A stretch of 64,000 nucleotides of DNA from Bedellia somnulentella (Eukaryota; Arthropoda; Insecta; Lepidoptera; Bedelliidae): NCBI GenBank assembly GCA_963576735.1, contig OY755171.1, positions 10,602,001-10,666,000 on the forward strand. The letters run 5' to 3'. The notes below the pieces were generated by a model. The model was not told the DNA's origin. It did no database searches and saw only the letters and a list, made by a program, of their open reading frames with translations. Both the position numbers and the translations under genes were made by a program. Every line of letters starts with the position of its first letter. Position 1 is the first letter of the stretch. Positions 8,161 to 58,214 of this stretch are shown in pieces.

Positions 8161-8402
8161 CGCATACTTACATATACTCAAACCATCAGTAGCCATTGGG
8201 GTGGGCAGAGAGTAAGCAGTTGATCGCCACTTTGTACGATCTTGGCAAGAAAAAAATATTAATAAATGTAAATGAAGCTCATGCCTTCATTTGCATTTAT
8301 CAATCTTTTCATCAACCTCTACTGACATTACTATGCACATTGACTCTTTAACCATATTTTTTTCACCCATCTTCTCTATTTGCCCAAATCATCTAACCAC
8401 AT
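8161..8402 (-). mobile_element. LINE-A 3' fragment, decayed
   Basis: Reverse-strand remnant of the 3' end of the RTE-like LINE-A (best copy 15495-17054): CCATTGGGGTGGGCAGAG, GATCGCCACTTTGTACGAT, and later the region of the FGHIERM codons (CTATTTGCCCAAATCAT). A short extra segment with a palindromic core (AAATGAAGCTCATGCCTTCATTT) sits inside. It abuts a SINE-1 copy. Confidence 0.7.
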
Positions 8403-8408
8403 TTTTTC

Positions 8409-8649
8409 ACATATATCCTCATGGCCAAAAATCCTAAAACGGGATAGCCAGAACTTCAGAGCTAGATACTCCTTAGCCACATTTGGAAGTTGTTCATGAA
8501 AAATATGGTAGAAATAAAGTTTCGTTGGTGATGGGTCTCCAACCGCGTCGCCCAAAAACCACTTTAAAAAGCCCCGTACCCTTAATCGCCTCTTACGACA
8601 CCCGTGGGTAGAAAGGCGTAGTGACATTCTAAGCCGGCACTACATGGCA
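8409..8649 (-). repeat. SINE-1 copy, near full length
   Basis: Reverse-strand copy with a degraded 3' tail and an intact 5' end (AAGCCGGCACTACATGGC at right). It has the GGTCTCCAACC box region. It directly follows a decayed LINE-A fragment. Confidence 0.8.
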
Positions 8650-9165
8650 ACACACCACCACATTTTTTTGTGAAAATAATACTAGATCAATGCGTTTAAG
8701 TAGGACGATACGAGCTGTTAACTTTTGTGTACTAATTGAGCGTTTCAGTGCGCTTGCTGGCGGGGAGCGGGCCGGCCGCGCATTCGTTAGCAATATTCCA
8801 CTAACGAACCAAATTAATGCCTATTAACGTGAATAACGCTGCACTTTACTCCGACCAATGTTACGCTCACATTTTCAATGACACAATAATAAACATTAAT
8901 TCTAGCATATATTCTGACATTTATTTAATTCTTTTGTGTTTGGGATTAGAGAAACAAAATTTTCTATGAAGTATCGCAATGAGTTTTTCTTTGTTTTTTT
9001 TATATTGAAATGAATTTGGTTGTCGTATTTTTAATAATAAGTTTATAAAATAGATTGAGAAAAAATAGTTGAAGGTCAATCTTTTCTATGCCTGTCTTTT
9101 CCTCTGTATCAAAAGATCAAAAAGATTTTTAACGTATCATTTGATGGCAATACAAGTATGATAAA
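8650..9165. other. Non-coding DNA with a GC-rich island
   Basis: A compact GC-rich stretch at about 8740-8800 (TGGCGGGGAGCGGGCCGGCC) in AT-rich surroundings. No coding potential was recognised. Confidence 0.4.
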
Positions 9166-15494: not shown

Positions 15495-17054
15495 CATACA
15501 TACATACATACATATACTCACGCCGTTAATTCCCATTGGGGTAGGCAGAGACTATCGATCGCCACTTCGTACGATCCTGGCAAACCTCTCTTGCTTCGTC
15601 TACATCCATAAATCTTTTCATACATGCTCTTTTATTCTTCATACTTCGGACGCCTGCCTTTTTGAGCACACTTTCAATTTGGTCCAAGTGTGTCTTTCGT
15701 GGCCGTCCTCTACTAACATTACCTTCCACAATGGCTCTATATATCTCTTTCACCACTTTACTGTCATCCATCCTCTCTATGTGCCCAAACCATCTCAACA
15801 TTCCTTTTTCTATCTTTCTTACAATATCATCTTTTACACCACACCTTTCACGAATCACATCGTTCCTCACACGATCACATAACCTAACATTACAAACTTT
15901 TCTGAGGGACCTCATTTCTACTGCATTCACTCTGCTTTCATGCTTCTTCTGCCACACCCAACATTCACTGCGATACATAAGCGTAGGAACAAGAACGGCA
16001 TCATGCACAGCCATTCGGGCCCTTTCGGACACCGATTGACTAGACATTAGGCTATCCAATGCTCCATTAATCGCATTACCCTTTTTCACTCTTCTCTCAA
16101 TATCTTCATCACATTTTCCATCCCTTGTAAACAAACTTCCCAGATATACAAACTCCTTCACCTGTTCCACATCCTTACCATCAATCGCAATCACGCATTC
16201 TGTCACATCTTCCTGTCTCTCAAAAACCATCGTTTTGGTCTTATCCACATTCACCCTCATTCCCTTTCTTACAAAAGACTTACATGCAATATTCATCATC
16301 TCTTGCAACTCTTCTGCCGATGATGCAAGTAGCACTTGATCGTCAGCATACAAGAGGCATTTAATGATGAATCCACCCATTCTTAGTCCATAATCACTTT
16401 CACGCAACTCTGTCAAACAGTCATCCATGAACAAATTGAAGAGCCACGGAGAAGCTACACATCCCTGTCGGACACCCCTAGAGATTCCGAACCAGTCAGT
16501 GTTTTCCCCGTTTACTCTTACACATGCACTAGAATCCTCATAGAGTGATACCAATGCACGTATAAGTTGACTCCCCAAACCGAACTTGGATAACACCTCC
16601 CATAAACACTTTCTTACCACCCTATCATACGCCTTCTCTAAATCAATGAAGGAGCAATACACCTTTTGGTTTTTAGCTAAGAACTTTTCGGTGATGCTCC
16701 TTAGAGAGAAGATTTGATCCATACATCCCATTCCTTTCCTAAATCCTGCTTGCACATCCCATATTTTCTCATCAGTTTCATTCATCACTCTTTCAATCAG
16801 TACCTTAGCATACAATTTACCGACAATGCTGAGTAGGCTAATGCCGCGGTAGTTTTTAGCCTCCTGGCGTGACCCTTTTCCTTTATACAGGGGCACAATC
16901 ACCGCCTTGCACCAGTCTTGTGGTACTTTGCCACTCGACCAGCACTTTTGGAAAAGGAAGTACAACCAAGAAGCCACCAACCCTTTACCAGCCCTCAGCA
17001 TTTCGATAGTTATCCTATCATACCCTGCCGCCTTCCCTATTTTCATACTCTTCA
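15495..17054 (-). mobile_element. LINE-A: RTE-like non-LTR retrotransposon, 5'-truncated
   Basis: 1,560 bp with an 11-bp target duplication TAATAATAAAA at 15484-15494 and 17055-17065. The 3' end (at left) is the sequence ...CGGCGTGAGTATATGTATGT followed by ATGT repeats. The endonuclease half is missing, as expected for incomplete reverse transcription. Other copies or fragments lie at 8161, 10041, 51890 and 60366. The 3' end is shared with SINE-1. The RTE label rests on the RT style and microsatellite tail and needs a tree. Confidence 0.88.
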
Positions 17055-17055
17055 T
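15526..17055 (-). CDS. LINE-A reverse transcriptase, open over 509 codons
   Basis: Reverse transcriptase part of a LINE polyprotein that would copy RNA into DNA at a nicked target. Visible motifs are GKAAGYDRI near residue 7, KNYRGISLL (67-75), VQAGFRKG (101-108), FIDLEKAYD (136-144, first catalytic Asp), GVRQGC (194-199) and YADD (236-239). The C-terminal tail has FGHIERM and RGRPRKTHLDQIE. No stop or frameshift interrupts it, so the copy is fairly young. The ATG at 17055 is created by the insertion junction and is not the native start: the N-terminal endonuclease is gone. Confidence 0.88.
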   Translation of the reverse strand: MKSMKIGKAAGYDRITIEMLRAGKGLVASWLYFLFQKCWSSGKVPQDWCKAVIVPLYKGKGSRQEAKNYRGISLLSIVGKLYAKVLIERVMNETDEKIWDVQAGFRKGMGCMDQIFSLRSITEKFLAKNQKVYCSFIDLEKAYDRVVRKCLWEVLSKFGLGSQLIRALVSLYEDSSACVRVNGENTDWFGISRGVRQGCVASPWLFNLFMDDCLTELRESDYGLRMGGFIIKCLLYADDQVLLASSAEELQEMMNIACKSFVRKGMRVNVDKTKTMVFERQEDVTECVIAIDGKDVEQVKEFVYLGSLFTRDGKCDEDIERRVKKGNAINGALDSLMSSQSVSERARMAVHDAVLVPTLMYRSECWVWQKKHESRVNAVEMRSLRKVCNVRLCDRVRNDVIRERCGVKDDIVRKIEKGMLRWFGHIERMDDSKVVKEIYRAIVEGNVSRGRPRKTHLDQIESVLKKAGVRSMKNKRACMKRFMDVDEAREVCQDRTKWRSIVSAYPNGN

Positions 17056-17172
17056 AATAATAAAAGTTCAGGCTAAATGTTATGATGGGTCTCACAATTA
17101 CTCAAAATGTGCCAATACTCTTAGTTACACCTTAAGACACCCATCAGAAGAAATTGGTTAGCATACTATACA
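17055..17172 (-). repeat. SINE-1 remnant, right part
   Basis: Continues the SINE interrupted at 15494: TAATAATAAAAGTT, then ATGATGGGTCTCAC, CACCCATCAGAAGAAAT and ACTATACAGC. These correspond in order to the SINE-1 reverse strand. It is clearly diverged, older than the LINE-A inside it. Confidence 0.65.
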
Positions 17173-19064
17173 GCTTATTAGAGAAAACAATAAGGTCAAT
17201 ATTTTTCAAACGAATAAATATTTAAATTTCAAGGTTATAACTTGGTTATTTTGAAGCCAAATTAGTCTTTATGACTTTTATTAAGATTTCTTTTTTGTCT
17301 ACTTTTGTCGTTTGCATATCGACCATTAGTTAAGTCTCGATTCAGATTCAAGTGCGAAAAAAGGGTTAAAATTAGTTATGCAGTCTTCGAAACTTATTCT
17401 GGAAACTTCTATAGCTCCAGCAAATTTTCAAAGCATACGCGGTGTAATATATCGTAAGGGAATCGCGAAATCGTGTGGAAGTCATTGAGAGGGTGGCGAG
17501 TCGCTCACTGTACTCCGGCCGACTTGGCGCCGACCGCCAGCCGTGGTTACTTTACCACACCAACTTCACTTCGCAAACACTCTATGACTCCTTCAACATT
17601 ATTCTACTATTATAAACTTAGAACCATTAAATTTCAAGTTGAAATGATGATAAAATTTTAATAGGACATATTTTCCTTTGTACAGAATTTCTTAGTTGGG
17701 TTGATAGATATAGTTAGTGCTAAAACAATAACGGTATACTTGTCAAAAACTTCGTTTCGTACTTCGTTTTTAGTACTTCCTACTTATTAAAATCGGAAGC
17801 ATTTAGTTTGGCTGTTTAATTTGTAGCCAACACTTAAGCCTAGGACACAGCCACAACAAGCTCGTACACAATCAACTGTGCATGATAGTGGGCCCCTCGA
17901 TAGTGTGCATACTGTAATTATGTTCTGAGCCCAATAAATTCTAAGAGGAATGAAATAGGGCACCCTATAATGTAACATTTAGTTTACGCATTTTATTTAA
18001 ATTAGAGCAACTTGATCTCATTTCAACAATAAAAACAAAATCTGACATGTCAGAGCTTGCTAAAAAGTAAGAAATATTAGCAACAAAGGCCTTTTTTTGT
18101 ATTTTCAAACCAATTCAAGCTGTCGTCAATAGTTTTACATTCAAAATATAAATATTAAACGAATTGACGGCAAAATGAATATGTTTGTATCGGCAAGCAG
18201 CAGGGCGGCGGCGGCGGCAGTTCGCGCCTTCGCACAAAGTCGTCCCATCGCGAGGTGCGTGTGAATAATTCAGTCGGCGCGATGCTTGCTCTCCGGGGCT
18301 TTGAATGGAATACCAACATCTGATCTGTGATTGCGCAAGATAAATCAGTTTCCTTTTTCCTTTCTCCATTTTTGTTTTATTTGCTACGAGCGAATTCTCT
18401 AGGTAATCGAAATGTTTCATTTTAGAATTTATTAGACGGTTCGGTTTTTGTTTTCCGATTTGTGGAACTGTAACATTACACTGCTTTAATCATTCAATGC
18501 TCTCGGGAAGTATCTTTGATATAAGTTGTTTTAGTATTGCGAGTTGGTTGTATAATAAATTAATGAATGGGGACTAATTAGAATCGTAGCGTCAATATAA
18601 ATTCAAATAGTGGCTGTTTGTGGTGTTCATATTCACAGCTTACCGTCAATTTGCCGGTGTCGAATATTTTAATTGCTCGCGTGCATTTTGTGCTGAAAGC
18701 ACTCAATTGAGTTACGCTACCATAATTCGCAGAATATCATTCATAGAGACCGCAGCATTGAGCTTCATTCGGTTGAAACTTACCACCCCAATAAAACTCT
18801 TGTTCTAATATTTTTATGAACTTACAATTTATATTTGTTGAATTATTCGTTGTATTTTGTATATATTTACCAGCTTTAAGGTTTATTTAAAAAGTAAAGG
18901 TGAAATGATAAATAATTCAAAGTATCTTATCTTATTATGCATGCCGCCGTTTAATTAATACTGTGATTTTATATCACGGAGCATATGATTTCTCGACGGA
19001 GTAATGAAATAATAATAAGGAATATTTAATTCTTACAAAATATCATAGTATTATATATAGTGAT
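17173..19064. other. Non-coding DNA with two GC-rich islands
   Basis: Islands are at 17455-17560 (ACTTGGCGCCGACCGCCAGC) and 18185-18305 (a GGC-rich run, then TCAGTCGGCGCGATGC). No gene or known repeat was recognised between them. Confidence 0.4.
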
Positions 19065-19191
19065 GCCGTGTAGTGCCGGCTTAGAATATCACTAATCCCT
19101 TCTTCCCACCGCTGTCGTGAGAGGCAACTGAGTTTTTTGTCGATGCAGTTGGAGACAATCACCAACGATACTTTGTTTCTACCATCTTGTC
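19065..19191 (+). repeat. SINE-1 copy, 5' half, split by the foldback element
   Basis: Begins GCCGTGTAGTGCCGGCTTAG and runs to ACCATCTTGTC. The same SINE continues at 28489 with CATCTTGTCCCC...ATAGCCGTGAG. The last nine bases (19183-19191) are one copy of the foldback target duplication. Confidence 0.82.
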
Positions 19192-19406
19192 ACCTGTGTG
19201 AAGTTGGCAGCCAAAACTGGCAGCCATTATAATACGACCAAATTAAGAAGTAAAATACTTTTTGGTTCCATTTACCAGAATAACATGTAAATCCACAGTT
19301 TTCACTAGTTATTCTGTTATATGTATCGATACTCACCCGGACATACATCCATATCCATCTGTAGACAGTGCCAAAGCCTGCAGATAAAATGAAATAAAGC
19401 ATGGGA
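19192..19406 (+). repeat. Foldback terminal inverted segment, left
   Basis: About 215 bp of non-tandem sequence. It includes CAGCCATTATAATACGACC and a CTGCAG site near the inner end, and then runs into the first 183-bp unit at GGAGCCGCTCCAG. It matches 28274-28488 in reverse complement. Confidence 0.88.
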
Positions 19407-21739
19407 GCCGCTCCAGAAAAATCCTCACCTCTCCTAAACCAAGACCCGTAACACTTTGTGGTTACATTCATTGTAAAGCTTATTACATAAACTATCAAAT
19501 GATGGTACAAAAGTATCCCGCTTTGCCGTCAGAGTAAAGAAAATTCGACGAAGAAGATGACAGCGTATAAAACTGTAAGAAATACGGCGGCCGCTCCAGA
19601 AAAATCCTCACTTCTCCTAAACCAAGACCCGTAACACTTTCTGGTTACATTCATTGTAAAGCTTATTACATAAGCTATCAAATGATGGTATCACAGTATC
19701 CCGCTTTGCCGTCAGAGTAAGGAATATTCGACGGAGAAGATGACAGCGTATACAACTGTAAGAAATATGGCGGCCGCTCCAGAAAAACCCTCACCTCTCC
19801 TAAACCAAGACCCGTAACACTTTGTGGTTACATTCATTGTAAAGCTTATTACAAAGGCTATCAAATGATGGTATAACAGTATCCCGCTTTGCCGTCAGAG
19901 TAAGGAATATTCGACGGAGAAGATGACAGCGTATACAACTGTAAGAAATATGGCGGCCGCTCCAGAAAAACCCTCACTTCTCCTAAACCAAGACCCGTAA
20001 CACTTTGTGGTTACATTCATTGTAAAGCTTATTACAAAGGCTATCAAATGATGGTATAACAGTATCCCGCTTTGCCGTCAGAGTAAAGAATATTCGACGG
20101 AGAAGATGACAGCGTATACAAGTATAAGAAATATAGCGGCCGCTCCAGAAAAATCGTCACCTCTCCTAAACCAAGTCCCGTAACACTTTGTGGTTACATT
20201 CATTTTAAAGCTTATTACATAAGCTATCAAATGATGGTATCACAGTATCCCGTTTTGCCGTCAGAGTAAAGAATATTCGACGGAGAAGATGACAGCGTAT
20301 ACAACTGTAAGAAATATGGCGGCCGCTCCAGAAAAACCCTCACCTCTCCTAAACCAAGACCCGTAACACTTTGTGGTTACATTCATTGTAAAGCTATATA
20401 CATAAGCTATCAAATGATGGTATCACAGTATCCCGCTTTGCCGTCAGAGTAAGGAATATTCGACGGAGAAGATGACAGCGTATACAAGTATAAGAAATAT
20501 AGCGGCCGCTCCAGAAAAGTTCTCACTTCTCCTAAACCAAGACCCGTAACACTTTGTGATTACATTCATTGTAAAGCTTATTACAAAGGCTATCAAATGA
20601 TGGTATAACAGTATCCCGCTTTGCCGTCAGAGTAAGGAATATTCGACGGAGAAGATGACAGCGTATACAACTGTAAGAAATGTGGCGGCCGCTCCAGAAA
20701 AACCCTCACCTCTCCTAAACCAAGACCCGTAACACTTTGTGGTTACATTCATTGTAAAGCTTATTACAAAGGCTATCAAATGATGGTATAACAGTATCCC
20801 GCTTTGCCGTCAGAGTAAGGAATATTCGACGGAGAAGATGACAGCGTATACAACTGTAAGAAATATGGCGGCCGCTCCAGAAAAACCCTCACTTCTCCTA
20901 AACCAAGACCCGTAACACTTTGTGGTTACATTCATTGTAAAGCTTATTACAAAGGCTATCAAATGATGGTATAACAGTATCCCGCTTTGCCGTCAGAGTA
21001 AGGAATATTCGACGGAGAAGATGACAGCGTATACAACTGTAAGAAATATGGCGGCCGCTCCAGAAAAACCCTCACCTCTCCTAAACCAAGACCCGTAACA
21101 CTTTGTGGTTACATTCATTGTAAAGCTTATTACAAAGGCTATCAAATGATGGTATAACAGTATCCCGCTTTGCCGTCAGAGTAAGGAATATTCGACGGAG
21201 AAGATGACAGCGTATACAACTGTAAGAAATATGGCGGCCGCTCCAGAAAAACCCTCACTTCTCCTAAACCAAGACCCGTAACACTTTGTGGTTACATTCA
21301 TTGTAAAGCTTATTACAAAGGCTATCAAATGATGGTATAACAGTATCCCGCTTTGCCGTCAGAGTAAAGAATATTCGACGGAGAAGATGACAGCGTATAC
21401 AAGTATAAGAAATATAGCGGCCGCTCCAGAAAAATCGTCACCTCTCCTAAACCAAGTCCCGTAACACTTTGTGGTTACATTCATTTTAAAGCTTATTACA
21501 TAAGCTATCAAATGATGGTATCACAGTATCCCGTTTTGCCGTCAGAGTAAAGAATATTCGACGGAGAAGATGACAGCGTATACAACTGTAAGAAATATGG
21601 CGGCCGCTCCAGAAAAACCCTCACCTCTCCTAAACCAAGACCCGTAACACTTTGTGGTTACATTCATTGTAAAGCTATATACATAAGCTATCAAATGATG
21701 GTATCACAGTATCCCGCTTTGCCGTCAGAGTAAGGAATA

Positions 21740-23030
21740 CGAGGGCTGCTATTTATGTATCCGGAATAAAAAAAAGAAACAAACATATATCAATTAATAT
21801 GGTTTTATTGCTTCTCAAAATATTCGCCGCTCAGATCTATACACTTTTGCATGCGTTGAAACCAATTTTCATAGCACTTTTTCCACTCAGACTGAGGTAT
21901 CTCCAAAACGTGCATTTTGAACGCATCGACTGCCTCTTCGCGGCTCGAAAAACGTTGACCACGTAATTTTTTCTTCACATTTGGAAATAAATAAAAATCA
22001 TTGGGTGCCAAATCAGGGCTGTACGGCGGATGACCTGTCAATTCGATCTTTTGAGCTTCTAAAAACTGAGTTGTGACGGCCGACCTGTGACAGCTAGCAT
22101 TGTCGTGATGCAGAATGATTCTACGTTGTCGGTTAGTCTTTCTTATTTGTTCAAAGACTTCCGGCAAACAAATGGTCGTATACCACTCCGAATTAACAGT
22201 TTTACGATTCTCTAAAGGCACTGTAGCTACATGGCCATTTATACCAAAAAAACAAGCGACCATTTGCTTCAATGTGCTTTTTGCACGAATAACTTTTGTT
22301 GGGTTCGGCTCATCTTGGAACACCCACACCGTGGACTGCTGCTTAGTTTCGGGGTCGTAAGCGTAGATCCAAGATTCGTCACCTGTGTAGATATTATAAA
22401 CAGCTTTTGACGCACCACGGTTGTATTTTTTTAACATTTCTTTGCACCAATCGACACGAGCCTGTTTTTGATCAATACTCAAGTTGTGCGGAATCCAACG
22501 GGAGCAAATTTTTTTTACAGCTAAATGTTCATGAAGTATCTTATGTATGCTCGTCATACTAATGCCCAGAGATGCCTCTATCTCACGATATGTAACATGA
22601 CGATCTTGAGTTATTAGTTCCCGGACAGCATCGATGTTTTGAGGTACAACGACCGTTTTAGGGCGACCTTCTTTAATTTCATCAGTAAGCTTAGATCGTC
22701 CACGATTAAACTCGCTAAACCAGTGATACACAGTGGTCTTTGAGGGTGCTTCATCCCCAAAAGTCGAAGTAAGCTGATCGATGCACTGTTTTTGAGTTAG
22801 ACCACGCCGAAAATCGTAAAAAATCATGGCACGAAAATGTTCACGAGTTAAATCCATGGTGGTGAAGACACGCAATTTTCAAAATGACGCTACGATGTGA
22901 AAACAATTGACAGTCACATAAAAATAAATGTATTCTAAAGCTAAAGAGTTCTATTTTTAAATGATGTAATTACTTTTTAAATTATTGTTCTGTAAGTGGC
23001 CAGTTCCGGATACATAAATAGCAGCCCTCG
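21740..23030 (-). mobile_element. Intact mariner transposon inserted in the foldback arm
   Basis: 1,291 bp with 27-bp perfect terminal inverted repeats (CGAGGGCTGCTATTTATGTA plus TCCGGAA) and the TA target duplication expected for the Tc1/mariner superfamily (21738-21739 and 23031-23032). The target is the GGAATATTCGACGG part of a 183-bp unit, which resumes exactly after it. Perfect ends and an open transposase frame suggest a recent insertion. Confidence 0.93.
21805..22875 (-). CDS. Mariner transposase, full length, DD34D
   Basis: 356 codons, within the family's usual 340-360. Cut-and-paste transposase acting on the flanking inverted repeats in the nucleus. It has paired helix-turn-helix DNA-binding regions (about residues 10-115), the linker WIPHNLS near 127, catalytic Asp 166 (TGDESWIY), Asp 258 (LHHDNA) and Asp 293 (YSPDLAPNDFYLFP), with 34 residues between the last two. 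No stop or shift is present, so it could be active. The native start may be the second ATG at 22857 (MDLTREHF), which matches the start of the 31-kb relative. Subfamily not assigned; it resembles the 31-kb copy more than the 49-kb one. Confidence 0.93.
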   Translation of the reverse strand: MRVFTTMDLTREHFRAMIFYDFRRGLTQKQCIDQLTSTFGDEAPSKTTVYHWFSEFNRGRSKLTDEIKEGRPKTVVVPQNIDAVRELITQDRHVTYREIEASLGISMTSIHKILHEHLAVKKICSRWIPHNLSIDQKQARVDWCKEMLKKYNRGASKAVYNIYTGDESWIYAYDPETKQQSTVWVFQDEPNPTKVIRAKSTLKQMVACFFGINGHVATVPLENRKTVNSEWYTTICLPEVFEQIRKTNRQRRIILHHDNASCHRSAVTTQFLEAQKIELTGHPPYSPDLAPNDFYLFPNVKKKLRGQRFSSREEAVDAFKMHVLEIPQSEWKKCYENWFQRMQKCIDLSGEYFEKQ

Positions 23031-25181
23031 TATTCGACGGAGAAGATGACAGCGTATACAAGTATAAGAAATATAGCGGCCGCTCCAGAAAAGTTCTCAC
23101 TTCTCCTAAACCAAGACCCGTAACACTTTGTGATTACATTCATTGTAAAGCTTATTACAAAGGCTATCAAATGATGGTATAACAGTATCCCGCTTTGCCG
23201 TCAGAGTAAGGAATATTCGACGGAGAAGATGACAGCGTATACAACTGTAAGAAATGTGGCGGCCGCTCCAGAAAAACCCTCACCTCTCCTAAACCAAGAC
23301 CCGTAACACTTTGTGGTTACATTCATTGTAAAGCTTATTACAAAGGCTATCAAATGATGGTATAACAGTATCCCGCTTTGCCGTCAGAGTAAGGAATATT
23401 CGACGGAGAAGATGACAGCGTATACAACTGTAAGAAATATGGCGGCCGCTCCAGAAAAACCCTCACTTCTCCTAAACCAAGACCCGTAACACTTTGTGGT
23501 TACATTCATTGTAAAGCTTATTACAAAGGCTATCAAATGATGGTATAACAGTATCCCGCTTTGCCGTCAGAGTAAAGAATATTCGACGGAGAAGATGACA
23601 GCGTATACAAGTATAAGAAATATAGCGGCCGCTCCAGAAAAATCCTCACCTCTCCTAAACCAAGACTCGTAACACCTTGTGATTACATTCATTGTAAAGC
23701 TTATTACATAAGCTATCAAATGATGGTATCACAGTATCCCGTTTTGCCGTCAGAATAAAAAATATTCGACGGAGAAGATGACAGCGTATACAACTGTAAG
23801 AAATATAGCGGCCGCTCCAGAAAAATCGTCACCTCTCCTAAACCAAGACCCGTAACACTTTGTGGTTACATTCATTGTAAAGCTATATACATAAGCTATC
23901 AAATGATGGTATCACAGTATCCCGCTTTGCCGTCAGAGTAAGGAATATTCGACGGAGAAGATGACAGCGTATACAAGTATAAGAAATATAGCGGCCGCTC
24001 CAGAAAAGTTCTCACTTCTCCTAAACCAAGACCCGTAACACTTTGTGATTACATTCATTGTAAAGCTTATTACAAAGGCTATCAAATGATGGTATAACAG
24101 TATCCCGCTTTGCCGTCAGAGTAAGGAATATTCGACGGAGAAGATGACAGCGTATACAACTGTAAGAAATGTGGCGGCCGCTCCAGAAAAACCCTCACCT
24201 CTCCTAAACCAAGACCCGTAACACTTTGTGGTTACATTCATTGTAAAGCTTATTACAAAGGCTATCAAATGATGGTATAACAGTATCCCGCTTTGCCGTC
24301 AGAGTAAGGAATATTCGACGGAGAAGATGACAGCGTATACAACTGTAAGAAATATGGCGGCCGCTCCAGAAAAACCCTCACTTCTCCTAAACCAAGACCC
24401 GTAACACTTTGTGGTTACATTCATTGTAAAGCTTATTACAAAGGCTATCAAATGATGGTATAACAGTATCCCGCTTTGCCGTCAGAGTAAAGAATATTCG
24501 ACGGAGAAGATGACAGCGTATACAAGTATAAGAAATATAGCGGCCGCTCCAGAAAAATCGTCACTTCTCCTAAACCAAGTCCCGTAACACTCTGTGGTTA
24601 CATTCATTTTAAAGCTTATTACATAAGCTATCAAATGATGGTATCACAGTATCCCGTTTTGCCGTCAGAGTAAAGAATATTCGACGGAGAAGATGACAGC
24701 GTATACAACTGTAAGAAATATAGCGGCCGCTCCAGAAAAATCGTCACATCCCCTAAACCAAGACTCGTAACACTTTGTGGTTACATTCGTTGTAAAGCTA
24801 ATTACATAAGCTATCAAATGATGGTATAACATTATCCCGCTTTGCCGTCAGAGTAAGGAATATTCGACGGAGAAGATGACAGCGTATACAACTGTAAGAA
24901 ATATGGCAGCCGCTCCAGAAAAACCCTCACCTCTCCTAAACCAAGACCCGTAACACTTTGTGGTTACATTTATTGTAAAGCTTATTACATAAGCTATCAA
25001 ATGATGGTATCATAGTATCCCGCTTTGCCGTCAGAGTAAAGAATATTCGACGGAGAAGATGACAGCGTATACAACTGTAAGAAATATGGTGGCCGCTCCA
25101 GAAAAACCCTCACCTCTCCTAAACCAAGACCCGTAACACTTTGTGGTTACATTCATTGTAAAGCTTATTACATAAGCTATC

Positions 25182-25824
25182 GAATAATAAATAAATAAAT
25201 AAATAAATAAATAAAAATGTTTATTTCCACAAATAATACAATTAACAATTTTTGCACATTAAAAATGACATGAAATTTATAACAATAGTTATATACTTTA
25301 CTTTGTAGTTGCAGAAATTAAAGTTCAATAGCATCCTACTAAGCCAATGGCCTGTGCTAGGATGCCAAAAATTAACATTTGCATAGGTATTTACACAATC
25401 ATTTAAAATATTAATTTACACTTTTAATTGCTATCGGTTGGAAATAATGGTAATTTTGATAAAATAAAGATAAACTAATTTACAACTTCAATAACATTAT
25501 GATATAAAATTTGATTAAATAATTGAAATGTCCTAAAGTAATTATAATAATAACAAAGAAATAATAATAATGAATCAATTAATATAAACGCATAATGGAC
25601 AATGTGAACAAAATAAATGAAAAACATCATCACAGATAATTAATTAAAAAACAAAAACATATTACTAATTTTTATTCCAAAAGAGCTTCTGTATTTAGAT
25701 ATGTCATATTCATTAGGTATTCCTGTATACATTTCTTAAATTCTATTTTATCGAGGGCGTGCATATGGCAAGATCTATTTAGTTTATTATATATATGTCC
25801 ACCAAGGAAATCTCTAATCTAATT
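25182..25824 (-). mobile_element. Truncated LINE 3' end inside the foldback left arm
   Basis: Non-repeat sequence splitting a 183-bp unit. Its 3' tail is the TTTA repeat (AATAAATAAATAAATA at left). At its right end the minus strand encodes a C-terminal piece (IYNKLNRSCHMHALDKIEFK, continuing with KKCIQEYL, then a stop) like the ends of CR1/Jockey-type RT proteins, followed by about 480 bp of 3' UTR. Some 9 bp of the target unit (around AAATGATGG) are missing at the junction. Confidence 0.7.
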
Positions 25825-26066
25825 GTATCACAGTATCCCGCTTTGCCGTCAGAGTAAGGAATATTCGACGGAGAAGATGACAGCGTATACAACTGTAAGA
25901 AATATGGCGGCCGCTCCAGAAAAATGATCACCACTCCTAAACCAAGACCCGTAACACTTTGTGGTTACATTCATTGTAAAGCTTATTACATAAGCTATCA
26001 AATGATTTTATCACAGTATCCCGTTTTGCCGTCAGAGTAAGGAATATTCGACGGAGAAGATGACAG

Positions 26067-28273
26067 TCTGGAACGGCCGCCATATTTCTTACAGTTGTAT
26101 ACGCTGTCATCTTCTCCGTCGAATATTCTTTACTCTGACGGCAAAGCGGGATATTGTTATACTATCATTTGATAGCTTATGTAATAAGCTTTACATTGAA
26201 TGTAATTACAAAGTGTAACGGGTCTTCGTTTAGGAGGGGTGAGGATTTTTCTAAAGCGGCCGCCATATTTCTTACAGATGTATACGCTGTCATCTTCTCC
26301 GTCGAATATTCTTTAATCTGACGGCAAAGCGGGATACTGTTATACCATCATTTGATAGCTTATATAATTAGCTTTACAATGAATGTAATCACAAAGTGTT
26401 ACGGGTCTTGGTTTAGGAGTGGTGATCAATTTTCTGGAGCGGCCGCCATATTTCTTACAGTAGTATACGCTGTCATCTTCTCCGTCAAATATTCTTTACT
26501 CTGACGGCAAAACGGCATACTGTGATACCATCATTTGATAGCTTATGTAATTAGCTTTACAATGAATGTAATCACAAAGTGTTACGGGTCTTGGTTTAGG
26601 AGAGGTGAGGGTTTTTCTGGAGGGGCCGCCATATTTCTTACAGTTGTATACGCTGTCATCTTCTCCGTCGAATATTCTTTACTCTGACGGCAAAGCGGGA
26701 TACTGTGATACCATCATTTGATAGCTTATGTAATAAGCTTTACAATGAATGTAATCACAAAGTGTTACGGGTCTTGGTTTAGGAGAGGTGAGGGTTTTTC
26801 TGGAGCGGCCGCCGTATTTCTTACAGTTTTATACGCTGTCATCTTCTACGTCGAATTTTCTTTACTCTGACGGCAAAGCGGGATACTGTTGAACCATCAT
26901 TTGATAGCTTATGTTATAAGCTTTACAATGAATGTAATCACAAAGTGTTACGGGTCTTGGTTTAGGAGAAGTGAGGGTTTTTCTGGAGCGGCCGCCGTAT
27001 TTCTTACAGTTTTATACGCTGTCATCTTCTACGTCGAATTTTCTTTACTCTGACGGCAAAGCGGGATACTGTTGTACCATCATTTGATAGCTTATGTTAT
27101 AAGCTTTACAATGAATGTAATCACAAAGTGTTACGGGTCTTGGTTTAGGAGAGGTGAGGGTTTTTCTGGAGCGGCCGCCGTATTTCTTACAGTTTTATAC
27201 GCTGTCATCTTCTACGTCGAATTTTCTTTACTCTGACGGCAAAGCGGGATACTGTTGTACCATCATTTGATAGCTTATGTTATAAGCTTTACAATGAATG
27301 TAATCACAAAGTGTTACGGGTCTTGGTTTAGGAGAGGTGACGATTTTTCTGGAGTGGCCGCTATATTTCTTATACTTGTATACACTGTCATCTTCACCGT
27401 CGAATATTCCTTATTCTGACGGCAAAACGGGATTTTGTTATACCATCATTTGATAGCTTATGTAATAAGCTTTACAATGAATGATATCACAAAGTGTTAC
27501 GGGTCTTGGTTTAGGAGAAGTGACGATTTTTCTGGAGCGGCCGCCGTATTTCTTAAAGTTGTATACGCTGTCATCTTCTCCGTCGAATATTCCTTACTCT
27601 GACGGCAAAGCGGGATACTCTTATACCATCATTTGATAGCTTTTGTAATAAGCTTTACAATGAATGTAATCACAAAGTGTTACGGGTCTTGGTTTCGGAG
27701 AGGTGAGGGTTTTTCTGGAGCGGCCGCCATATTTCTTACAGTTGTATACGCTGTCATCTTCTCCGTCGAATATTCCTTACTCTGACGGCAAAGCGGGATA
27801 CTCTTATACCATCATTTGATAGCTTATGTAATAAGCTTTACAATGAATGTAACCACAAAGTGTTACGGGTCTTGGTTTAGGAGAGGTGAGGGTTTTTCTG
27901 GAGCGGCCGCCATATTTCTTACAGTTGTATACGCTGTCATCTTCTCCGTCGAATATTCCTTACTCTGACGGCAAAGCGGGATACTGTTATACCATCAATT
28001 GATAGCCTTTGTAATAAGCTTTACAATGAATGTAACCACAAAGTGTTACGGGTCTTGGTTTAGGAGAGGTGAGGATTTATCTGGAGCGGCCGCCATATTT
28101 CTTACAGTTGTATACGCTGTCATCTTCTCCGTCGAATATTCTTTACTCTGACGGCAAAGCGGGATACTGTGATACCATCATTTGATAGCTTATGTAATAA
28201 GCTTTACAATGAATGTAACCAGAAAGTGTTACGGGTCTTGGTTTAGGAGAGGTGAGGATTTTTCTGGAGCGGC
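26067..28273 (-). repeat. Right arm: ~12 copies of the 183-bp unit, inverted
   Basis: The same unit on the opposite strand, starting abruptly after GATGACAG at 26066 with TCTGGAACGGCCGCC. There is no spacer between the arms. It has its own variants (TTTTATACGC, TACGTCGAATTTTC) in three consecutive units near 26815-27230, so the right arm has expanded independently of the left. Confidence 0.92.
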
Positions 28274-28488
28274 TCCCATGCTTAATATCATTTTATCTGC
28301 AGGCTTTGGCACTGTCTACAGATGGATATGGATGTATGTCCGGATGAGTATCGATACATATAACATAATAACTAGTGAAAACTGTGGATTTACATGTTAT
28401 TCTGGTAAATGGAACCAAAAAGTATTTTACTTCTTAATTTGGTCGTATTATAATGGCTGCCAGTTTTGGCTGCCAACTTCACACAGGT
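28274..28488 (-). repeat. Foldback terminal inverted segment, right
   Basis: Reverse complement of the left terminal segment, ending CTGCCAACTTCACACAGGT. Differences from the left copy are few (for example ATTATG against ATTCTG). The 9-bp target duplication follows immediately. Confidence 0.88.
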
Positions 28489-28577
28489 CATCTTGTCCCC
28501 TATCAACTACCAAATGAGGTTGAGGAGTTTCTAGCTCTAAAGCCCAGAGCTTTTTGGAATTTATAGCCGTGAGTATC
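28489..28577 (+). repeat. SINE-1 copy, 3' half
   Basis: Starts with the second copy of the 9-bp target duplication and continues CCCCTATCAACTACC...TTTATAGCCGTGAGTAT. This is the other half of the SINE at 19065-19191. Joined, the two halves give one SINE-1 minus the duplicated nine bases. Confidence 0.82.
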
Positions 28578-30629
28578 TATATAAAGAGATGAGCTTGTGG
28601 CGGAAAAAGAAAGGTCTTCCGCCATTCGGCGGTATGCCTGGGGACCGCTGTCCAACTGTATTAGAAGAAGAAGAAGAAGAAAGACATTTATTCGCTTCAT
28701 AAAAGGCACAAAAACTAAAAATATGCAGACAATAAGAAATAAAATGTAAAAAAAGTAAAAGAATACAGAAAAAAAACAATATAACACTAAATAAGTAAAA
28801 TCACAAAACAAAAATGAAATAAAAATTTTAAAAAGAGATTTAAAACTAAAGATAGAAGACAAAAAACACTATAAAAATAATACCAAGAACACATAAAAAA
28901 ATGGAAATTATGTAGCTTTGTGCCTTCCAACAGCAAAAAGCTGGAACTTGTATATATACTAAGTATTTTAGAAATTTCGATTGCGCGATGTAGGATTTGT
29001 ATGGCGAGTCTTGATGACGAGAGTAACGTATATTGCTTGGTTACGTTAATCAAAATTTTCGAATTAAGGCGTAGCAGATGGGACAAGAGAGCGATCAAAT
29101 AAAAATTCAATTGGGTACAAGACTAGAAATAAATATTGAACCGTGGTCCAACTTCCAACGATTTCCGTGGACGAGTGGATAGCTCTAATAGCTTCTCGAT
29201 CTGGAGGTTGTGGCTTCAAGCCCCACTGAGATAATTATTTATGTGATGAACATAAATTATTATTTCTCACCTTTGGATGTTATTGATATGTGTATAATAT
29301 CAAATACTAAATATATCAGGGATGCAACGATACGTCTATTACGATACCAATACGAATGACGAATACATCGTAATGGCCAATTATGATACGAATGCATTAC
29401 GATATTACGATATTTGTTTAATACCATTTTAATGAATTTATTGGAAGCTTTATAGTATGTTATTGTAAGACTAAGAAAGTATAATTATAAAAAAATAATG
29501 AATTTTTAATCAATATATTTATTAAGAGTAACAATTTTCATCATTAACTTATATATAAATATATCGTTAAGTAAGTATCCCATAATACAGGTTCTACTTA
29601 GTTTGGGGCTAACTTGATCTGTGTATAATATATCAGTATATTAATTTGATTAATTTACTTTCTACATAACTACATTATCTTGTTAAACAAGGAAGTCACT
29701 ATCCGCACAAATATTTACTTAGTAGTTATGGAGTACGTTCAGCTACGGCACTACCATGACCATTTTAATTTCTATGCTATATTGATTCTTATTTCTAGTT
29801 TATTTTTATATTTCTTGTTTTCAATTTCCATTTAAGCATGAACGCATATGACACAATAATATAAATCAAAGTTGCAGATCTTTAAACGCTTTAAATCCAA
29901 AGAAAAGCTTTGGAAAGTGTCACTTTCATATCGGTCCGGCCGCTGCAGACACCAAACAGACAGACTAATAGAAACAGAAAATAATTGTGGTATGTGTATT
30001 ATTTTGTACAAACACTCGGTTTAAAATTATAGATGCTCCAGTAACATTTATTTTATGATGTTAAGTTTTACTTACGAAATTTTCTGCAACTGGAAATAAT
30101 TACATTTGTCCTAATAATTACAGATTGAATTGCTAGGTTGGTAGCTTATAACCGAAAAACCTTAAGAGTAAGACATAACATTTTAAACATGCTACCGTAA
30201 GCGTAAATTGTTAACAAATCATGAAAATATTTTTACAACTCCATAGTTAAAACAGACGTATGTAAAATTATATTAGCATTTACCATTACGCGCTGCAGCT
30301 GAACTGTAAATATTACCCACTCAAATAATTCCGATCATTCCAAATATTTAATTGTTAAACTGAATTTCCGCTTCGAACACAATGCTTAAATTATGCTAGC
30401 TATTATATAAACAAACAAATATTCTGCCTAAATAACATCGCTACTCTCCCTTTTATTATCGCATTCTCTTAATTTTCAAAGACAAATATTCTTGCTAAAT
30501 GAAGATTGTTATTTGGATTTAGAACAGGAAATGCTGTATTATTTTTCCATTAAATAATTTTAGGACTTCAGAAATGATTGGTATTGGAGAGATACTAAAT
30601 AAAGTGATAAATCTGCTTTGAGATTAAAT
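28578..30629. other. Non-coding DNA with unidentified repeat pieces
   Basis: 28585-28660 is a GC-richer piece (GGTCTTCCGCCATTCGGCGG) followed by a GAA microsatellite at 28668-28682 and a long A-rich stretch, resembling the 3' end of an unidentified LINE on the minus strand. 29325-29420 has a repetitive ATTACGATA-like texture. The rest is featureless. Confidence 0.35.
29165..29285 (+). repeat. Possible tRNA-derived SINE fragment
   Basis: GTGGATAGCTCTAATAGCTT followed by GGAGGTTGTGGCTTCAAGCC has the spacing and look of tRNA A- and B-box regions (GGCTTCAAGCCCC for B), then ATTATTTATGTGATGAACAT. There is only one copy here and no target duplication was found. Confidence 0.4.
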
Positions 30630-31041: not shown

Positions 31042-32317
31042 CCAGGCCACTCAGAAAGTATTGCGAAAAAAGGTTTTAATGTATGAAATACTGGCCGGTT
31101 GTAATGTATACTGAAAATATGAGTCTTTATAAATAAAAAAAAGTAGGTTCCAATTTAAAATTTCCCTCTTTATTTTTTACGAGCTATTTTAAATTGTCGT
31201 GTCTTACTGAAAAATGAATCTTAGCCGGGAACATTTTCGCGCTATGATTTTTTACGATTTCAAATGTCGCTTAAAACCAGACGAATCATACGATAGACTT
31301 CAAATGGTGTTTATGGATGAAGGGCCTTCCAAGGCAACCGTGTATCGTTGGTATAACGAATTCGATTAACTTTGCGGGATGAAGAAAGAAGTGGTCGCCC
31401 TCTAACGGCTGTTACGGATGAAAACGTGGTGGAAGTGAAAAATTTAATTCATGACAATAGGCGAATAACGTATCCAGAGATTCAACACATTATGCAGATT
31501 GGATCGGGAAGCGTTCATGAGATTTTACACGAACATCTTCACGTGAGGAGGATAGTTTCACGCTGGGTGCCACACAACCTCACCGAGGTACAGAAACAGG
31601 CCCGGGTGGAATGGTGTCATGATATGATTAATAAATTTGATGCTGGCTCGTCTCGGCGTGTTTACGACATCGTTACAGGTGATGAGTCCTGGATTTATCA
31701 ATATGATCCAGAAACGAAGCACCAGTCGACGGTTTTAGGTATTTCAAAACGAAGCGACCCCTACCAAAGTGAAGAGATCTAGAAGCGGTGGGAAGATTTT
31801 GATCGCAAGTTTTTTCAATATGACTGGCTATTTGGTGTCAATTCCTTTACAAGATCAAAGAAGTATTAACGCAGACTGGTATACTACTAAATGCTTGCCA
31901 GTAGTTTTCTCAGTTGTGAGCAACAATCGACCAAATACAGGGCTCCGCGGGCTACTGCTTCACCACGACAACGCGCCCGCTCACACCGCGCTCAAAACGA
32001 CGGACTTCCTGAACAGCACGCCGGTCAAACTCTTGGGTCACCCTCCTTACAGCCCTGACCTGGCACCGTGTGACTTCTTTTTATTCCCTAAAATAAAAAA
32101 TCAACTTAAAGGGATACAATTTTCATCGCCGGAAGATGCGCTGTCAGCGTTTCAGCGGGCTGTAAATGAGGTGTCTGCGGCGGAATGGAAAAAGTGTTTC
32201 GAAAACTGGTTTAGACGTATGAAACTTTGTATAGATGCTGGTGGAGAGTACTTTGAAAACATTTTTACCCATCCAACATTTTTTTTTATTTTCGCAAAAT
32301 TTTCTGCGTGTCCCACG
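31042..32317 (+). mobile_element. Second mariner transposon, decayed
   Basis: 1,276 bp between TA dinucleotides (31040-31041 and 32318-32319). Imperfect terminal inverted repeats: CCAGGCCACTCAGAAAGTAT at left, and CGTGGGACACGCAGAAAATT on the reverse strand at right, both followed by TTGCGAAAA. It is related to, but clearly diverged from, the mariner at 21740. Confidence 0.85.
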
Positions 32318-32344
32318 TATAATGTTACTAGTTGGTTAAGATAA
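31214..32344 (+). pseudogene. Mariner transposase pseudogene
   Basis: Starts MNLSREHFRAMIFYDFK and keeps the mariner order: WVPHNLTE, TGDESWIYQYD (first Asp), LLHHDNAPAH (second) and YSPDLAPCDFFLFP (third). Three defects are visible. A stop (TAA at 31366) with a small deletion and frame change lies at the end of the first helix-turn-helix part. There is a frameshift near 31735, after HQSTV. The normal stop is lost, so the frame runs through the right terminal repeat. It cannot make a working protein. Confidence 0.88.
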
Positions 32345-41620: not shown

Positions 41621-41867
41621 CATACATACATGCATTATACTTTCGGCTACAAATCCCAAGAAGAGGAACCAGACGTTATAATTAAAAATTCTTTAGCAAC
41701 TTCCGAAGCTCTTTACGGAAATCATATAAAAGAAAAGATTTGTTGATAATGGGTCACCAGCAATATGACATAAAATAACTTTAAAAGCCCCGAAACCCTA
41801 AGCCGTCTCTTGCGACACCTTCGGGTAGATATAGGTTATTGCTATTCTAAATTGACACCACACACAC
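41621..41867 (-). repeat. SINE-1 copy, strongly diverged
   Basis: Same order of parts as SINE-1 (CATACATACATGCATTATAC tail, CCAGACGTTATAATT, GATAATGGGTCACCAGC, GCTATTCTAAATTGACACC), but with many changes. An old copy directly before LINE-C. Confidence 0.72.
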
Positions 41868-41892
41868 TATTTTATACATAAATACATATACA

Positions 41893-44265
41893 GCACTTTA
41901 TGACGTTCATGCACCAATAAAAGCGGTGAAAATGAAACATTTACCGGCACCATGGCTCAGTACTGATATTAAAAATCTTTTGACTAAAAAAGCACGTGCC
42001 AAGTCTAAATTTAAATCTCGACCAACTGATGTAAATAAAGAAAAGTATGTTTTAATTCGAAATCATTGCAATAGGGTGTGTAGGGATGCACAACGACACC
42101 ACATTCATGAATCCGTTGAAAATGGCGATCCAGCTAAAATCTGGAAGTTTCTTAGATCCTTAGGAGTTGGAAAATCTCGTCAAGATTCAATCCCAAAAGA
42201 CATTGACCTCAAGTTACTTAACAATCATTTTTCCTCATCTTCTGCCTTTGGAGGTTTTCAAAAGGCTGAAACATTAAATTATCTTTCTGCACTTCCAACT
42301 CCGGATCATCCACCCTTTAATATGTGTCAATTCTCCGATTGTGATGTTAATAAGAACATTATATCTATTACATCAAACGCAGTAGGCGGTGATTGTATTA
42401 GCCGTAAAATGATATTGCCTATCCTTGACATAATTGTTCCCGTTATCACCAAAATCTTTAACAATTCCATATCCTCAGGATCATTTCCAACAATATGGAA
42501 AGAAGCCCAAGTTACCCCTATTCCTAAAAAAGTCAATCCTAAGTCCTTTTCTGAATATCGTCCTATATCTATCCTCCCTTTCCTTTCTAAAGTTCTTGAA
42601 CGATTGGTTAATAGACAACTCAGTGACTTTCTCACTAAAAATGATCTCCTTAATCCTTTTCAATCTGGTTTCCGTCCTTCTCACAGTACTGTCACGGCTC
42701 TTGTCAAAATTACTGACGACATTCGTTTGGGGATGGATAAGGGTCTGCTGACTATCCTGGCATTGCTAGATTTCAGTAGTGCTTTCAACACAGTTGACTT
42801 CGAAATATTATTAGCTTTACTTCGTTCTCTTAACATATCTCCAACGGTGATTGACTGGTTTCGTAGTTATCTACTAGGACGACGGCAGCGTATTCGCATC
42901 GAGGAGTCTTACTCTCCCTGGTGCGAGTTAACTGCCGGTGTTCCACAAGGTGGTGTGTTGTCTCCTCTTTTATTTGCTATATTTATTAATAGTATTTCTC
43001 TTCAACTAACTTCTTCCTACCACCTTTATGCAGATGATCTTCAGATTTACACACAGGCTAATTTTGACCAATTAAATATGTCCATAAACTTGATTAATGT
43101 TGATTTGGAGCGGATTTTGAAATGGAGTGAAGCATATGGACTAAAAGTGAATCCAAATAAGACACAGATAATTATAGTCGGTAGTTCTCGAATTATTTCT
43201 AGGATCGACTATAAGTCACTACCGCCTATATTATTTGACGGAACATCAATTCCTATTAGCCCTACAGTTAAAAACCTAGGGATAATGATAGACAGCACCT
43301 TATCTTGGGTGCCACAATTAGAAATGGTTAGCCGAAAGATGTTCGCTTCAGCGGGATCCCTCAGAAGGTTGCGTAATTTTCTTCCTACTGCTACTAAAAC
43401 TGCGTTAGCTCAATCACTTCTCTTGCCCCTTCTTGACTATGCTGATACTTGCTACCTTGATATAACTGAAGAGCAACTTAATAAACTTGAGCGCCTCCAA
43501 AACTTTTGCATTAGGTTTATTTTTGGATTGAGGAAATATGATCATGTATCTGTATATCGCACTCAACTGAAATGGCTTCCTATTCGTCTCCGCCGGAATG
43601 CACATACACTTTCTCTCCTTCACTCTATTTTATTCAATCCTGCCACCCCTTTCTATCTAAAAGAACGTTTTCAATTTCTCTCCTCTTCCCACGATCTTAA
43701 TCTACGTTCTGAACATAATCTTCTATTAAGCATTCCCTCCCATTCAACCAATTACTATGGCTCCTCCTTCACTGTGCAGGCTGTTCAATTGTGGAACGCA
43801 CTTCCGGTAGAGATTCGTCAGGCTAAATCCCAATCTATTTTTAAGGATATGGTAAAAAAGCACTACCTCACTGAAACGCTATAATACTGTTGCAAATTAA
43901 ATTATATATATTAAGTATATAAATAAAAATATGTATCATAATATTTGTATGTAGTTTTAATTTATTGTATCATAGTATTTATATGTTTGTTAATAGTTTA
44001 TTATTTTATAACTAGATTTAAGTATGACTGGATTGTTGTATTGTTTAAGCAGATTAACGCATAGTCATCAGTTTCACCATGTTGTTGTACATCTATCTCA
44101 CATGACTCTAATTTATTGACCTCTCCATTCAAAGGTTGTCTGGAAGAGATCGCTTTTAGTGATAAGACCGCCAATTGTACTTTTGTTAATTCATTCTGTG
44201 TATTTGTAATTGTTTTTCCATATTTGATGTACAATAAAGAGTTTTCTATTCTATTCTATTCTATA
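41893..44265 (+). mobile_element. LINE-C: CR1/Jockey-superfamily retrotransposon, 5'-truncated
   Basis: About 2.4 kb. The reading frame is already open at the left edge (LYDVHAPIKAV before the first conserved residues), so the endonuclease part is lost by 5' truncation. It is followed by about 370 bp of 3' UTR with AATAAA and a TTCTA-repeat tail at 44247-44266. The UTR has a stem-like motif (44131-44172: TGGAAGAGATCGC...GTGATAAGACCGCC) also seen at 10470. A second, inverted fragment lies at 47146. Confidence 0.85.
41926..43884 (+). CDS. LINE-C reverse transcriptase, 652 open codons
   Basis: C-terminal two-thirds of a LINE polyprotein. Motifs: FPTIWKEAQVTPIPK (187-201), YRPISILPFLSKVLE (211-225), QSGFRPSHST (246-255), LLDFSSAFNTVD (280-291, first catalytic Asp), GVPQGGVLSPLLF (338-350) and YADD (368-371). 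The tail ends SSFTVQAVQLWNALPVEIR, typical of CR1/L2/Jockey-like elements. The position used as start is a GTG inside the element, not a true initiator. It is uninterrupted, so the copy is recent. Clade within the superfamily is unresolved. Confidence 0.87.
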   Translation: MKMKHLPAPWLSTDIKNLLTKKARAKSKFKSRPTDVNKEKYVLIRNHCNRVCRDAQRHHIHESVENGDPAKIWKFLRSLGVGKSRQDSIPKDIDLKLLNNHFSSSSAFGGFQKAETLNYLSALPTPDHPPFNMCQFSDCDVNKNIISITSNAVGGDCISRKMILPILDIIVPVITKIFNNSISSGSFPTIWKEAQVTPIPKKVNPKSFSEYRPISILPFLSKVLERLVNRQLSDFLTKNDLLNPFQSGFRPSHSTVTALVKITDDIRLGMDKGLLTILALLDFSSAFNTVDFEILLALLRSLNISPTVIDWFRSYLLGRRQRIRIEESYSPWCELTAGVPQGGVLSPLLFAIFINSISLQLTSSYHLYADDLQIYTQANFDQLNMSINLINVDLERILKWSEAYGLKVNPNKTQIIIVGSSRIISRIDYKSLPPILFDGTSIPISPTVKNLGIMIDSTLSWVPQLEMVSRKMFASAGSLRRLRNFLPTATKTALAQSLLLPLLDYADTCYLDITEEQLNKLERLQNFCIRFIFGLRKYDHVSVYRTQLKWLPIRLRRNAHTLSLLHSILFNPATPFYLKERFQFLSSSHDLNLRSEHNLLLSIPSHSTNYYGSSFTVQAVQLWNALPVEIRQAKSQSIFKDMVKKHYLTETL

Positions 44266-47097: not shown

Positions 47098-47140
47098 AAA
47101 TAAAGGAAAGAAAAATTTCGACACTGGCGGGAGATTTTTT
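47098..47140. repeat. Fragment of the AAATAAAGGAAAG palindromic family
   Basis: AAATAAAGGAAAGAAAAATT then TCGACACTGGCGGGAGA matches, in reverse, the arm and adjoining part of the elements at 9536 and 57981 (TGTCGAAATTTTTCTTTCC). It is immediately followed by a LINE-C fragment. Confidence 0.6.
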
Positions 47141-47145
47141 ATTTA

Positions 47146-47575
47146 TTTACTAAATATATATAATTTAATTTGCAACAGTATTATAGCGTTTCAGTGAGGT
47201 AGTGCTTTTTTACCATATCCTTGAAAATAGATTGGGATTTAGCCTGACGGACTATACCGGAAGTGCGTTCCACAATTGAACAGCCTGCACAGTGAAGGAA
47301 GAGCCATAGTAATTGGTTGAATGGGAGGGAATACTTAATAGAAGATTATGTTCAGAACGTAGATTTAGATCGTGGGAAGAGCAGAGAAATTGAAAACGTT
47401 CTTTTAGATAGAAAGGGGTGGCAGGATTGAACAAAATAGAGTAAAGGAGAGAAAGTGTATGTGCATTCCGGCGGAGATGAATAGGAAGCCATTTAAGTTG
47501 AGTGCGATATACAGATACATGATCATATTTCCTTAATCCAAAAATAAACCTGATGCAAAAGTTTTATACTACGAG
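47146..47575 (-). pseudogene. LINE-C 3' coding fragment, inverted
   Basis: Near-identical reverse copy of LINE-C about 43490-43920. It encodes the C-terminal region from about CIRFIFGLRKYDHVS through FYLKERFQFL, HDLNLRSEHNLLLSIPSHST and VQAVQLWNALPV. A stop/change after NALPV and small differences near the left end mark decay. 5'-truncated at about 47575; no UTR tail remains. Confidence 0.82.
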
Positions 47576-57980: not shown

Positions 57981-58214
57981 GAGGATAAATAAAGAGAATA
58001 AAATTCCCTCCGAATTTGTAAAAAAACTTGGAGGTAGGAAACGTTAACACTACTTAAATAGTGTAAAAGAAACAAAGAAAAGAACGATTTCGCACTAGAA
58101 GCCACTTGAAACTATAGCTCAATTGGCAGAGTGACGGGGGCGTATCCCGGAGGTCGTGGGTTCGATCCCCGCTGTTGTCGAAATTTATCTTTCCTTTATT
58201 TATTATTTATCCTC
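57981..58214 (+). repeat. tRNA-like SINE body between inverted AT-rich arms
   Basis: An A-box-like TAGCTCAATTGGCAGAG (58115) and a B-box GGGTTCGATCCCC (58158) are spaced about 44 bp apart as in a tRNA, marking a Pol III head. It is bracketed by GAGGATAAATAAAGAGAA at left and the inverted TTTATTTATTATTTATCCTC at right. The 57930-57964 stretch just before (TGTCCATGAAAACCTCAT) matches the start of the 9536 element. The anticodon-arm region is not tRNA-like enough for a functional gene. Confidence 0.65.

Follow-up and report, generated by a model that had tools for sequence, protein, structure and literature searches.

How satellite DNA moves between places, and how its arrays arise, is a long-standing question. 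It is raised by a locus of the moth Bedellia somnulentella (Lepidoptera, Bedelliidae) in which two inverted arrays of a 183-bp tandem repeat face each other at positions 19192-28488 of the 64,000-nucleotide stretch analysed here (the window; assembly GCA_963576735.1, contig OY755171.1, positions 10,602,001 to 10,666,000, forward strand). An earlier note, made from the sequence alone, had proposed that this region is not a local satellite but a single transposed foldback element. Our results suggest that it belongs to a non-autonomous foldback DNA transposon family, which is seeded as ends and units, whose arrays lengthen after insertion and whose transposase probably comes from a Rehavkus-type source; we give this reading a probability of about 0.8.

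The window copy has precise borders. Its 215-bp terminal domains, the left at 19192-19406 (plus strand, beginning ACCTGTGTGAAGTTGGCAGC) and the right at 28274-28488 (inverted, minus strand), are identical at 211 of 215 positions, and the same 9-bp target-site duplication, CATCTTGTC, stands on both sides of the element, at 19183-19191 and 28489-28497. The arms (19192-21613 and 26067-28488) are complementary at 94% over 2422 nt, and Tandem Repeats Finder (TRF) detects a period of 183 in either half. The foldback structure with 183-bp-unit arms and nearly identical inverted termini of about 215 bp is thus as the earlier note described it. The left arm array runs on the plus strand for 12.8 units (19407-21739), resumes beyond a nested mariner-type transposon for 11.8 units (23031-25185) and closes with an innermost 241-bp piece aligned to the unit (25826-26068). 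Its 24.5 units and the 241-bp piece are about twice the 12.05 inverted units of the right arm array (26069-28273, minus strand). Since the mariner and a foreign segment of about 640 bp are nested in the left arm, the element proper measures about 7.4 kb. The two arms are unlike in length, sequence and nested insertions. No open frame of at least 100 amino acids (aa) runs through the window arrays, and a protein-coding role for them was dropped on that ground. A possible transposase-binding motif, in which the unit agrees at 16 of 19 bp with terminal position 63-81, was rejected as weak, with 12 of 300 shuffles reaching its score.

The element interrupts a short interspersed nuclear element (SINE), of which the left part lies at 19060-19191 (left duplication included) and the right part at 28498-28591, both on the plus strand. 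When the two flanks are put together around a single copy of the 9-bp repeat, the SINE is restored, as had been claimed. With six further SINE copies of the window as references, the exact join has the top summed score among 61 junction offsets (599); the left flank by itself reaches 356, and 300 random right flanks reach at most 374. For one of these six references taken singly, offset +1 scores 2 points better than the exact join.

The genome from which the window comes (549 Mb in 486 contigs) contains many relatives of the element. A search with the 215-bp terminus returned 151 candidates, 40 of which were scored and are 97-100% identical, and a 33-bp end pattern with at most 3 mismatches identified 138 ends genome-wide (72 + 66; reversed control 0). 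A hundred places among these matches were listed, all of them exact, and 33 inverted pairs were taken from this and the terminus list. A perfect 9-bp duplication accompanies 31 of the 33 pairs examined (12/13 in the first set, 19/20 in the second). The 31 duplications are all different from each other and have an A+T content of 66%, while the ends differ between elements at only about 2.9 of 217 columns. Every end followed inward enters 183-bp units; these comprise 13 pairs and C20:208466, nine further loci, another 15 (about 430 bp each, 2 overlapping the nine) and L082, read by eye. For the 19 other pairs of the second set, coverage extends about 40 bp inside the ends, and further for the left half of C20:208466 and for samples of the C2, C14 and C19 elements.

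Thirteen duplication-bearing elements were read through. Their arms hold from 4+4 to 159+2 units and are strongly unequal in length within several elements, and total lengths range from 2,030 bp (C20:4676899) to 30,060 bp (C29:7598365, 159.8 + 2.1 units); the lengths of C8:11468336 and the C3 element are approximate because both hold 200-N gaps. Terminus copies at other loci, independent copies with different flanks and duplications, and copies with different repeat numbers had all been named by the earlier note as signs of mobility, and all were found. Long, variable inverted arms of tandem repeats and independent insertions with target-site duplications are the features of a foldback-type transposon, and the family is real and mobile. 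Exact matches to a 20-bp terminus piece were absent from viral and prokaryote contigs, as were exact matches to a 30-bp unit piece from viral contigs.

We then asked what the copies have in common inside their ends, taking from the 13 elements 604 units that each cover 165 or more of the 183 model positions. The mean difference between units, out of 183, is 12.0 within the same arm, 12.4 to the other arm of the same element and 14.1 to other elements, and in 8 of 13 elements the same arm supplies the nearest relative for over half of the units. Shared unit order is rare: among 325 pairs of the 26 arms, only three have at least 4 consecutive units in common (at most 2 differences each). In all three, the two arms belong to different elements, the longest run is 5 units, and two of the runs begin at unit 1. 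First units are a little more alike across elements than other units are (12.3 vs 14.0). Within arms, a run of at least 3 units is repeated in 11 of the 18 arms having at least 10 units, and the block spacing varies by element: 14 units at lag 29 (C29), 9 at lag 8 (C6:5530128), 8 at lag 12 (C6:11071882) and 7 at lag 8 (C8). In the left arm of the window copy, this takes the form of a multi-unit higher-order pattern in which units L03-L08 equal L10-L15, unit by unit. In a test with 2000 permutations, its lag-5 periodicity is equalled at any lag from 1 to 8 just twice; the right arm, with 262 such cases, has no clear periodicity. Only one of these matching blocks contains the nested mariner (in unit L13), which is therefore younger than the block duplication.

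Few shared unit orders, mainly beside the terminus, together with block duplications of each element's own, suggest that the inherited portion consists of the terminus with a small number of neighbouring units. The arms are probably short when an element inserts, and the satellite then grows in them; much of each array looks to have multiplied in place, arm by arm. The proposal that the array is one transposed unit therefore stands for the element, which did transpose, and has to be revised for much of the array, which looks grown where it now lies.

Several elements switch straight from the plus to the minus array. The element at C6:11071882 retains a 609-bp middle between its arrays, and the same piece recurs at the same array junction in a 25-kb element of C14 (sample L109; 96% identity over 321 columns), the duplications of the two elements being different. 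This piece encodes a 67-aa protein tail that ends in a stop codon and has the zinc-finger spacing C-x2-C, C-x2-C, H-x2-C, C-x2-C; the tails of the two copies are 97% identical. Because 9-bp duplications, minisatellites and a PHD finger are listed for Rehavkus (PMC6446971), we take the middle piece for a Rehavkus-like gene end and infer that it is the remnant, at the 3' end of the gene, of a Rehavkus/Mutator-type transposase. Besides the 9-bp target-site duplication, the family shares with Rehavkus the satellite or minisatellite units adjoining the terminal repeat. The 640-bp segment of the window copy differs from this shared piece, and a middle common to all copies was rejected, as the segment matches the compared middles only by 29 bp in the C20 element.

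Eight open frames, drawn from 11 of at least 70 aa in nine fetched non-array stretches, were tried against Pfam; two contain long terminal repeat (LTR) retrotransposon integrase domains and six gave nothing. The integrase-bearing frames are nested retroelements or neighbours, not the element's own transposase. Long frames inside other copies are one of 973 aa in the C20:208466 element (L059), which looks by eye like a non-LTR retrotransposon protein, and one of 477 aa with LTR-type integrase domains in L111 (C19:5185000-5186500); both are probably nested insertions.

We propose the following model for the family. A transposase provided in trans, probably by a Rehavkus-type (Mutator-allied) autonomous element, would recognise the 215-bp ends and insert the element through a 9-bp staggered cut, consistent with the insertions and 9-bp duplications observed. 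The element would land as its ends and a short seed of units, the in-phase 183-bp array starting directly inside each end. Each arm could then lengthen separately by recurrent multi-unit duplications, for example through unequal exchange or replication slippage, and such growth in place would account for the pattern seen in part of the arms. The outcome would be an inverted satellite array bounded by a duplication, with up to 160 units in one arm, so that every insertion would found a new satellite locus.

Several observations weigh against this model or parts of it, and they are best considered together with the other explanations. Two of the 33 pairs have no duplication. One of them (C19:5340192-5343332, L046) contains a 200-N gap, and its flanks are exact mirror images over 132 bp; it is a probable misassembly. 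In the other (C8:19650199-19668987), the inverted ends lie 18.8 kb apart and the duplication bases agree at 2 of 9; it could be two different elements or one rearranged element. The C19 copy shows how a local satellite with an inversion, or an assembly artefact, might imitate a foldback element. For the family, such an origin is extremely improbable given the different perfect 9-bp duplications at 31 independent loci, the dissimilar arms of the window copy and the SINE targets that rejoin. For the window copy, its target-site duplication and the SINE restored around it already refute this origin; an artefact seen in long reads was among the outcomes that the earlier note said would refute its reading. 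As to growth in place, the difference between within-arm and between-element unit distances is only modest, and the count of repeated runs over 18 arms has no shuffle control, the shuffled arms being those of the window. Arrays might instead lengthen before transposition, so that elements are long already when they move and the unit differences seen between loci go back to older source copies. In four of the 13 elements, half or more of the units are indeed nearest to those of another element (C28 69%, C19:11219061 56%, C3 51%, C20:4676899 50%), which suggests that array of older date was in some cases carried along or shared; the slightly closer first units and the 7 of 18 arms that lack an internal run longer than 2 units also fit this order of events. 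However, it is hard to reconcile with the scarcity of shared unit order, at least 4 consecutive units being common to only three of the 325 arm pairs and to none for more than 5, despite nearly identical ends, or with the element-specific block spacing and the very unequal arms within several elements. We consider it unlikely.

Growth after insertion from seeded ends thus remains our preferred reading, and the other counterpoints concern its transposase. The finger of the middle piece is C4HC3-like as read by eye, and every Pfam score falls short of the cut-off (C1_1 0.0077, C1_2 0.016, PHD E 0.26). No protein relatives of the zinc-finger tail were found in a search that, for so short a query, weighs only short proteins. 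Neither an autonomous copy nor a DDE domain of Rehavkus or of a Mutator-like element (MULE) was found among the frames from the fetched non-array stretches. The same kind of element could be served by an enzyme of another superfamily, of the Phantom-type MULE, Merlin or P-like (Galileo) kind; the foldback form emerges in several superfamilies. Tm1, a Phantom-type MULE, also combines 9-bp duplications with foldback ends (PMC3169594), and the duplications of Tetris are 8-10 bp long (PMC4079207). A PHD finger is, on the other hand, listed for Rehavkus (PMC6446971), and the middle piece ends in a finger that by eye is C4HC3-like, though short of every Pfam cut-off. An enzyme from elsewhere is possible, with the odds in our judgement somewhat against it.

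Where the elements land is a related question. With long flanks, 5 of 12 insertions lie within SINE copies and restore the target, vs 16 of 400 random midpoints of the window, which has a SINE copy at 8400-8653, for example. The probability of at least 5 of 12 at 4% is 6e-5, and that of at least 4 of 11, without the window site, is 7e-4. Among short-flank sites, 5 of 19 score above the threshold and three were counted (C9, C18 and C20:208466); C25:9241009 was dropped because its match is a library piece recurring in the window's retroelement, and C21 because it is weak (E 0.005). In total, 8 of the 31 duplication-bearing insertions are counted inside the SINE family. A target preference for the SINE is possible, and is to be taken as a lead only, as the background rate was drawn from one window.

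A 74.7-kb span (C2:3381825-3456553, L101-L107) has the perfect duplication TTATATAAG on both sides and a largely non-array middle: of seven samples, the three nearest the ends contain array and the four between contain none. This may reflect a composite that took other DNA with it when it moved, or an element filled by later insertions. It is tempting to speculate that the transposase disperses satellite DNA, as ends and a few units, to new and often SINE sites, with each arm growing on its own to as much as tens of kb, and that pairs of ends can also carry large pieces of unrelated DNA; we offer this wider picture tentatively and would not yet count on it.

The window contains further mobile DNA. 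The mariner-type transposon nested in unit L13 (21740-23030, minus strand) has 27-bp inverted ends and a TA duplication; its transposase frame, open over 350 aa, lies at 21805-22857 (minus). Its closest protein is 93% identical and the nearest named relative, from the bee Anthophora plagiata, 84%; mariners transfer between species. The foreign AT-rich segment of the left arm (25186-25825) opens with (AATA)n, has no second copy within the window and is probably a retroelement tail. Two more sets of mariner-like transposase frames were seen by eye in the translations, at 31357-32344 and 49548-50015; the two frames of the former have no Pfam match at E 0.001. At 43499-43929 and 47136-47565, about 3.4 kb apart, lie two inverted-repeat pairs (314 nt at 96%, 114 nt at 97%), which adjoin a 677-aa reverse-transcriptase-like frame (41851-43884, by eye) and are perhaps two retroelement copies in opposite orientation. 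An open reverse transcriptase frame of 513 aa occupies 15526-17067 on the minus strand (RVT_1, E 1.9e-37), and a transfer RNA (tRNA) match in Rfam lies at 58108-58180 (35.4 bits).

Finally, we compared the family with known systems. FB/NOF of Drosophila melanogaster has variable inverted arms with internal repeats and 9-bp duplications, with far shorter units, and the duplication of Galileo, another Drosophila element, differs in length from the 9 bp found here. Galileo resembles our family in its long, internally repetitive ends and differs in its P-type transposase, which binds at a site about 70 bp inward of the end and also within the tandem repeats (PMC3688188). Tm1 of root-knot nematodes likewise has variable inverted arms with internal repeats and 9-bp duplications, but includes copies that encode a Phantom MULE transposase (PMC3169594). 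In Lepidoptera, MULEs are on record from 88 species, and the terminal repeats of complete ones measure up to 1,193 bp (PMC13359780). No lepidopteran element of the present kind was met in the open-licence literature, mostly surveyed as titles and abstract openings.

The earlier note knew of no 183-bp-unit version in moths or butterflies. Outside moths, the long-unit plan is already known in a beetle and in Drosophila. Rehavkus-1_TC of Tribolium castaneum, Mutator-allied and 9.5 kb long, carries the 164-bp satellite TCsat23 arrayed in its inverted termini (PMC10218199), and Rehavkus, sister to the MULEs, has the same 9-bp duplication (PMC6446971). Its arrays are mostly of five and eight monomers (PMC10218199), compared with up to 159 here, where most copies read lack a middle; the likeness is one of structural description. 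Tetris of Drosophila virilis is also alike by description, with a flanking domain followed by tandem units of about 220 bp in inverted foldback arms, short duplications of 8-10 bp and no conserved open reading frame, and satellite arrays have been proposed to derive from it (PMC4079207). It differs in having three structurally complete copies, one with three or four left-arm units, and satellite arrays of up to 66 units for which the account gives no bounding duplication (PMC4079207), whereas the present family has 31 bounded copies and up to 160 units. To these systems the present family adds evidence for array growth after insertion, arms of up to 160 units and, within a single genome, many bounded copies, most of which, where read, lack a middle. 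With exact borders and near-identical ends, these copies tie satellite spread to a transposon and form a natural series in which one can measure, from a known start, how arrays grow and homogenise and how higher-order repeats originate, making the family a good system for watching satellite DNA being born.

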